NCBI GenBank assembly: GCA_016926155.1
Contig: JAFGPC010000057.1
Location: 1 to 56,928, forward strand
Source: Sedimentisphaerales bacterium
GTDB lineage: Bacteria; Planctomycetota; Phycisphaerae; Sedimentisphaerales; Anaerohalosphaeraceae
Direction of reading: 5' to 3'
DNA length: 56,928 nucleotides
Shown: positions 33,756 to 34,988 of the stretch, piece after piece
Layout: every line of letters begins with the position of its first letter
How positions within the stretch are numbered: the stretch's first letter is position 1
The notes under the pieces: model-generated
The model's database searches: none
What the model saw: only the letters and a program-made list of their open reading frames with translations
Told to the model about the DNA's origin: nothing
Translations under genes and position numbers: made by a program

Positions 33756-34250
33756 TTAAAAACCGTCAAATAATTCCGGCTGTGCTGTCGAATCCGGTTG
33801 ACCGATCTCTCTGGTCACTTCTTCCAGAAGCTGTCCGGCATCGGTAAATTCACGGTACACACTGGCAAAACGAATATAGGCGACATTGTCTACATGACGA
33901 AGATGTCGCATAACGTTTTCACCGATAAATCCCGAGGAAACCTCCTTGTCAAAATGGCGAAACACATCTTCTTCCACTCGATCTGCGATTTCCTGAATTC
34001 TCTCATATGAGACGGGGCGTTTATAACAAGCTTTCTGTAATCCGGCGATCACTTTATCCCGGTCGTATGGAACACGCGAACCATCCTTTTTGACTACATT
34101 TAATTTAAAACTTTCACCGATCTTTTCATACGTGGTAAAACGGCGTTCACAGCAAAGACACTGACGACGGCGACGGATGATTCTCCCCCCTTCGCTTGAC
34201 CGCGAGTCAATCACTTTATCGTTATCTTCCTTACAGAAGGGGCATCTCAT
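33756..34250 (-). CDS. nrdR: Transcriptional repressor NrdR
   Basis: A 164-residue nucleotide-sensing repressor of ribonucleotide reductase genes. The zinc ribbon is formed by Cys3, Cys6, Cys31 and Cys34 (MRCPFC...QCLCCERRFTTYE), followed by the ATP-cone (VVKKDGSRVPYDRDKVIAGLQKAC, YIRFASVYREF). The family is normally about 150 residues. It would bind NrdR boxes before nrd genes, none of which are in the window. Followed by the solo ATP-cone gene. Confidence 0.96.
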   Translation of the reverse strand: MRCPFCKEDNDKVIDSRSSEGGRIIRRRRQCLCCERRFTTYEKIGESFKLNVVKKDGSRVPYDRDKVIAGLQKACYKRPVSYERIQEIADRVEEDVFRHFDKEVSSGFIGENVMRHLRHVDNVAYIRFASVYREFTDAGQLLEEVTREIGQPDSTAQPELFDGF

Positions 34251-34325: not shown

Positions 34326-34353
34326 AAGATAATCACTGTATGTAGTATTTCAA
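34326..34353 (-). promoter_or_regulatory. Predicted nrdR promoter
   Basis: On the minus strand TTGAAA (34353-34348), a 16-base spacer and TATCTT (34331-34326) lie between the RNA candidate's terminator and nrdR, so nrdR can be transcribed independently of that RNA. Confidence 0.45.
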
Positions 34354-34379: not shown

Positions 34380-34414
34380 AAAAAAGGATCCCTGCATCCC
34401 CTTATGCAGGGACC
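34380..34414 (-). terminator. Rho-independent terminator of the candidate RNA
   Basis: On the minus strand, the segment at 34414-34403 pairs with 34396-34385 over 11 of 12 positions around a six-base loop and is followed by five T. Confidence 0.8.
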
Positions 34415-34603
34415 CTTAAATTGGATAGAAACTTACCAGGACCCCCCCGTGTAAGTTTCTTGATGCCCTGCATAAGTCGGCAGGGTCAGATGTCGTCCAG
34501 AGAGTTCCTTGCTCCGGGACGACTGGCTAATGAAGCCTCAGCCGACGGACAATGGGAGGAGGCGAGGAGCACTGTCCGCATCGGCCGGGCTACCAAACCG
34601 TTC
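34380..34603 (-). ncRNA. Candidate structured RNA of about 220 bases, unidentified
   Basis: Read on the minus strand, this G+C-rich island in an AT-rich gap contains a series of strong hairpins: GCCGATGCGGACA with TGTCCGTCGGC; GTCGTCC with GGACGAC; CCCTGC with GCAGGG; AGAAACTTA with TAAGTTTCT; then a terminator. A possible promoter (TTGCTT, 17 bases, TATTTT at 34637-34609) starts it at about 34603. No protein frame of note covers it. The CCCTGC/GCAGGG arms recur in the terminator, so the two hairpins could exchange partners, as in an attenuator. I could not match it to 6S, SRP, tmRNA, RNase P, T-box or common riboswitches. Confidence 0.55.
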
Positions 34604-34637
34604 CGCTAAAAAATAGAATATCTGACCTCCAGAAGCA

Positions 34638-34662
34638 AATCGGGCATGACTTTAATGCCCGA
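34638..34662 (-). terminator. Hairpin after the 101-residue gene
   Basis: ATCGGGCAT and ATGCCCGAT form a perfect nine-pair stem with a seven-base loop. On the minus strand it is followed by TTGCTT, only moderately T-rich and also the possible -35 box of the downstream RNA. Confidence 0.5.
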
Positions 34663-34682
34663 TAACATCTTTTAGTCCAGTC

Positions 34683-34988
34683 TTAAACAGACCCGTTTAA
34701 AAAAGATTTAAGTGGCTCAAAAAAACATAAAAACTGTTCTGGTTTTAAGTTAAAAACCTCATTTTCCGTAATTGGCCTTACGTCAAGCAATTGATGGTAA
34801 TTATCTGCGACATTGTGACAATTCCCATACGCTTCGACCCAGGGCCAGGCACGGGGAAATACGATTCCCTTTGGTGCTCCGGCGGAGGTCTGGCCAATGA
34901 ACCACAAATGCTTTTCAAACGATTTATAATATCTCGACAGGTCATCTACATCCCCAATCAACATGAATTCCAACTGTGCAATATGCAT
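34683..34988 (-). CDS. Small protein of unknown function
   Basis: A 101-residue soluble protein rich in aromatic residues (YYKSFEKHLWFIG, FPRAWPWVEAYGNCHN, LCFFEPL). No known motif and no signal peptide. The start has only a weak GAAG ribosome site. It is isolated in an AT-rich stretch with a hairpin behind it. The 258 bases upstream (34989-35246) contain no convincing gene. Possibly a solitary immunity-like or phage-derived protein; I cannot tell. Confidence 0.45.
   Translation of the reverse strand: MHIAQLEFMLIGDVDDLSRYYKSFEKHLWFIGQTSAGAPKGIVFPRAWPWVEAYGNCHNVADNYHQLLDVRPITENEVFNLKPEQFLCFFEPLKSFLNGSV

Follow-up and report, generated by a model that had tools for sequence, protein, structure and literature searches.

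Few small RNA families have been catalogued for the Planctomycetota; a 2022 survey of Rfam annotations counted 8 distinct sRNAs in the PVC group versus 345 in the Proteobacteria (PMC9029176). One candidate shared by both, the Rhodopirellula-1 motif, is an uncharacterised RNA of Proteobacteria and Planctomycetes (PMC2864571). Precedents for the mode of action come from the Actinobacteria. For the 6C sRNA of Mycobacterium tuberculosis, loop-mediated binding of mRNA targets that needs no RNA chaperone is reported (Mai et al. 2019, as cited in PMC10470900). The C-rich loops of the sRNA B11 could be bound by a 5'-UTR G6 tract, and mutation of both loops abolished repression (PMC10470900). Further points of comparison are the CsrA-sequestering RNAs CsrB, CsrC and RsmX/Y/Z, and 6S RNA (RF00013). 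Our literature search found no paper combining Planctomycetes, small RNA and nrdR, and three surveys of structured RNAs make no mention of nrdR in their main text. Here we describe a structured RNA locus from the Planctomycetota that we interpret, with a probability of about 0.6, as a stand-alone sRNA gene of a new, order-restricted family acting in trans through its loops or a pyrimidine tract.

The locus lies in a 56,928-nt stretch of contig JAFGPC010000057.1 from a Sedimentisphaerales bacterium, referred to below as the window. The original prediction had marked positions 34380-34603 as a G+C-rich block within an AT-rich gap, strongly folded on the minus strand into at least five hairpins and closed by a good intrinsic terminator, and all of these features were recovered. 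The G+C content of the block is 0.51-0.63 between AT-rich flanks. Its minus strand folds at -103.9 kcal/mol, compared with -76.9 +/- 4.8 kcal/mol for dinucleotide shuffles (z -5.6, 0 of 200 shuffles as stable), and for its G+C content it is the most stable of 1892 segments of 224 nt taken from both strands of the window. Five hairpins were located, the last being the terminator hairpin at 34384-34417 (Table 1). No conserved ORF signal was seen in the RNA, and we rejected a small-protein gene at this locus since the longest ORF has 26 aa versus 32 in shuffles.

The gene is predicted to have its own promoter and its own terminator. A sigma70-type pattern, GAT-TTGC-N16/17-TAnnnT-TT, occurs a few nucleotides before the 5' end of the RNA in nearly all copies, and A-rich tracts are often found upstream of it. 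From this promoter the transcript start is inferred to lie at 34601-34605 (about 34604) and the end at about 34380, which coincides almost exactly with the block originally proposed. Several other elements were observed around the promoter. A perfect 9-bp inverted repeat, ATCGGGCAT/ATGCCCGAT, adjoins the -35 box at 34639-34663, and a TTATCGGGC motif is present about 40 nt before the -35 box in many copies of clade f7, the clade with the most copies; the repeat and the motif may serve as operator or as upstream terminator. Just upstream of the promoter, a 101-aa ORF without a Pfam match occupies 34683-34988 on the minus strand.

Table 1. Features of the small RNA gene and its downstream neighbour (positions in the window)
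Feature	Position	Strand	Basis or remark
-35 element TTGCTT of the predicted RNA promoter, preceded by GAT	34633..34638	(-)	same architecture and placement in nearly all relatives
-10 element TATTTT of the predicted RNA promoter, spacer 17	34610..34615	(-)	conserved promoter pattern
Inferred small RNA, ~225 nt	34380..34604	(-)	promoter and terminator positions; fold z -5.6
5' hairpin P1/P2, pyrimidine tract in apical loop	34525..34599	(-)	MFE and centroid folds
Pyrimidine tract CCUCCUCCC, anti-Shine-Dalgarno-like, in 5' loop	34554..34562	(-)	comparison among members
Second hairpin, AAGGAAC in loop	34492..34523	(-)	folds
Hairpin CCCUGC..GCAGGG; loop and 3' arm could pair over 11 bp with the terminator	34466..34485	(-)	window genome only
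Penultimate hairpin P5, stem AGAAACUUAC/GUAAGUUUCU, G7 run in loop	34427..34460	(-)	compensatory changes in 7/10 pairs
Intrinsic terminator: 14-pair stem, loop with AAGGGGAU, then U tract	34380..34417	(-)	folds, covariation
nrdR promoter TTGAAA-16-TATCTT, overlapping NrdR-box-like ATACTACATACAGTG	34326..34353	(-)	conserved in relatives
nrdR (Zn ribbon + ATP cone), usual downstream neighbour, outside the RNA	33756..34250	(-)	

The RNA had been proposed to belong to no recognised class, and an Rfam covariance search of the whole window bears this out: no family reaches its gathering score, and relaxed thresholds gave chance-level matches only (the best, a chance match to the terminator, scored 20.6 bits, the cut-off being 81.9). 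Plain DNA similarity detected no match in 40 relatives because these differ too much from the window in sequence, and plasmid and phage records contained no match to the RNA. The family surfaced only through the syntenic nrdR loci and iterated profiles. An nhmmer comparison of the RNA with the 1.5 kb upstream of nrdR in relatives returned weak, correctly oriented matches, and iteration of the profiles extended the set to 52 distinct loci. Thus the alignment of nrdR-upstream regions from related Phycisphaerae, suggested earlier as a check, recovered both the RNA and compensatory changes in it.

A covariance model, R1, was then built from the 3' module and run on 161 whole genomes of the order. 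R1 matches 90 of them at E < 1e-5 (best 2e-18), with essentially one copy per genome. The matches are specific: all 55 found among 397 genomes of the class fall inside the order, which is very probably the Sedimentisphaerales of the Phycisphaerae, and among 392 genomes of the phylum only the window itself passes 1e-4. Coverage close to the window is lower. Of 39 genomes from the window's own family, a second model, R2, picked out six with strong matches, all six of them part of its training set, suggesting that the RNA was lost or has diverged too far in many close relatives. The assignment to a previously uncatalogued family, occurring once per genome in one order of Planctomycetota, is well supported, and we hold with high confidence that the family is real, new and restricted to this order. 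The Rhodopirellula-1 motif is likewise an uncharacterised candidate RNA of Planctomycetes, but by its description it also occurs in Proteobacteria, whereas the new family was found only in its order.

The constant part of the family is a 3' module composed of a G4-G7 run followed by the terminator hairpin with a conserved CUCUGC stem sequence. The 5' part is variable, being nearly absent in some copies and reaching about 350 nt in others, and for this reason the inferred RNA lengths span roughly 95 to 440 nt. Members of the window's clade display the G-run in the loop of a hairpin, P5, whose stem changes by compensation: the window's version is replaced by a GC-rich equivalent in member G013 and by another in G003. 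For the last two helices of this clade (P5 and the terminator), changes on both sides were observed in 12 of 20 pairs, and the covariation score was reached by 0 of 500 shuffles. The covariation set is small, consisting of eight sequences. In the same helices 92% of cells are paired, compared with at most 55% in slid controls, a comparison that is somewhat generous because the structure was drawn partly from the same eight sequences. Further elements are shared between clades, including a second hairpin, CCUGCCUU-GGGGGGA..AGGGCAGG, common to f2 and several f7 members, and an AGGGGA terminator loop recurring in f1-f3.

Two sequence features recur across the clades. Runs of four or more G occur in hairpin loops at about ten times the shuffled frequency in f1/f3 (1.71 vs 0.19) and f2 (2.15 vs 0.22), and at about twice that frequency in f7 (0.37 vs 0.16). 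A pyrimidine tract is present in most members, as CUUCUUCUCUCCUCCUUU in f2, CUUCUCCUCC in f3, UUUCCUCCUCC in G003 and, directly after the G-run, UUUCUUUCC in f7; G014, G022 and G004 lack it. These features invite comparison with 6C/B11, which are also stand-alone structured sRNAs with homopolymeric runs in their hairpin loops. In contrast to 6C/B11, however, the loops of the new RNA carry G-runs instead of C-runs, accompanied in some clades by a C/U tract, so that the polarity is reversed. In addition, the new RNA belongs to a different phylum, does not match the 6C model of Rfam and has a highly variable 5' part.

The inverted repeats themselves could be viewed as a DNA or repeat element that folds incidentally and encodes no RNA. 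Such repeats are numerous in the block and the complementary strand also folds well, although less well (z -3.8) than the minus strand. However, the element is single-copy, it has an oriented promoter and terminator, its stems show compensatory changes, and it has no plasmid or phage counterpart; we regard this explanation as hardly credible. A diverged housekeeping RNA (6S, SRP, tmRNA or RNase P) would account for a highly structured, single-copy RNA that is widespread within the order, and 6S RNA in particular is similar in being stand-alone and about 200 nt long. It is nevertheless a long bulged rod, unlike the several hairpins and intrinsic terminator seen here. We rejected 6S RNA, given that no covariance match was obtained at the locus and that 51 of 59 relatives, carriers of the new RNA among them, encode 6S RNA separately; tRNA and tmRNA were rejected with ARAGORN, which found neither. 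For SRP and RNase P, the comparison consists of the Rfam scan of the window, in which no family matched. Moreover, the patchy occurrence of the RNA within the order, with most of the window's own family lacking a detectable copy, is unexpected for a housekeeping RNA and speaks against such a role, which we consider very improbable.

The position of the RNA next to nrdR raises the question of whether it is the 5' leader of this gene, serving as an attenuator or riboswitch in which an internal hairpin switches the terminator. As originally described, the RNA adjoins nrdR on its upstream side, and nrdR is its usual downstream neighbour: of 39 usable loci identified by covariance model or sequence pattern instead of through nrdR, 31 have nrdR 231-506 nt downstream. 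The repetition of the CCCTGC/GCAGGG arms in the terminator, which had suggested a terminator/antiterminator switch, is also real and even longer than first noted. Over 11 bp, CTTATGCAGGG (34466-34476) can pair with the 5' arm and loop of the terminator; this perfect antiterminator pairing appears in a fold of intermediate length and is unlikely by chance in the window sequence (0 of 200 shuffles). However, this pairing is peculiar to the window genome, being absent in all 15 relatives tested. A separate promoter of nrdR, anticipated by the original prediction, is conserved downstream of the RNA's terminator; in the relatives it reads TTGACA-16-TAGAAT and overlaps ACATACTATATATTG, which resembles an NrdR box. 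Finally, nrdR is absent within 1.5 kb in 8 of the 39 usable loci (two further loci were too short to judge). Since the sequence pattern and covariance model used for this count were derived from nrdR-linked copies, these eight loci are if anything an underestimate. The RNA gene is not tied to one downstream gene. On the grounds of the downstream promoter, the loci without nrdR and the non-conserved antiterminator, we rejected the attenuator or leader, which is improbable, and with it the switch once proposed for nrdR.

The frequent linkage leaves some functional tie to nrdR possible. NrdR is described in PMC9110341 as often regulating its own gene, and the conserved promoter placed over the NrdR-box-like palindrome, together with a second half-site resembling it downstream of this promoter, suggests that nrdR is autoregulated throughout the order. 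In the relatives, the RNA is often preceded by a gene for thymidylate synthase or for a peptidyl-prolyl isomerase of the PPIC type (dprA in one case), and thyA or the PPIC-type gene is still upstream in most of the examined loci that have no nrdR. Between the RNA's terminator and nrdR, relatives in f7 and f2 (loci L065, L085, L089, L090, L099, L114 and L043) also conserve an element formed by a roughly inverted pair, CTGTGAGTTTTT ... CTAACAGCC; it is missing in the short gap of the window.

Instead of switching nrdR, the RNA probably has other RNAs or an RNA-binding protein as its target. For the second of these options, the main rival to a trans-acting RNA is a CsrA decoy like CsrB/RsmY, in which GGA loops would sequester the near-universal CsrA. 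The host repertoire agrees with this explanation, as CsrA is present in 63 of 66 good-quality genomes of the order and Hfq was detected in none of 118, and the new RNA shares G-rich apical loops with CsrB/CsrC/RsmX/Y/Z. GGA in hairpin loops exceeds shuffles in f2 (1.54 vs 0.57) and in the window (2 vs 0.32), and the recurrent AGGGGA terminator loop of f1-f3 also contains this motif. On the other hand, the enrichment does not extend throughout the family: only f2 and the window are raised, and f7 is near chance (0.60 vs 0.45). No clade has, on average, a raised total of GGA motifs, the Csr/Rsm families of Rfam give no match, and CsrA also occurs in genomes without a detectable copy of the RNA. 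We therefore consider a CsrA decoy unlikely, if well worth weighing.

The preferred reading, a trans-acting sRNA, would work as follows. In the window, a sigma70-type promoter (34610-34638) would direct the synthesis of a multi-hairpin RNA of ~225 nt ending at the intrinsic terminator at 34380. Without Hfq, this RNA would pair with target RNAs through its exposed G-run loops, the pyrimidine tract, or both, and the G-runs could mask the tract intramolecularly. As free strands, the tract and G7 loop of the window give a calculated -13.4 kcal/mol, a value that indicates a possibility rather than pairing evidence. Hfq was not detected in 118 genomes of the order by a search that was positive in five control genomes. 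Taken together, the lack of detectable Hfq, the near-universal CsrA and the G-runs in loops favour a trans-acting, chaperone-independent RNA, and we judge this mechanism itself somewhat better than an even bet. Perfect complements, 12 nt long, of the segment that is invariant in f7 were sought in 25 genomes and showed no clear excess over the reversed control. A more far-reaching version, in which the RNA would be an order-wide, Hfq-independent mirror image of 6C, with G-runs masking the tract, serving as a global regulator of translation in Phycisphaerae and usually encoded beside nrdR, is speculative and, as it stands, doubtful.

The candidate family comprises 90 strong instances with a defined promoter and terminator and with covariation support, in an order in which no recognisable Hfq was found among 118 genomes. 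It provides a concrete entry point to small-RNA action in Planctomycetota, and its usual neighbourhood, with thyA or the peptidyl-prolyl isomerase gene on one side of the RNA and nrdR on the other, makes a link to nucleotide supply testable.
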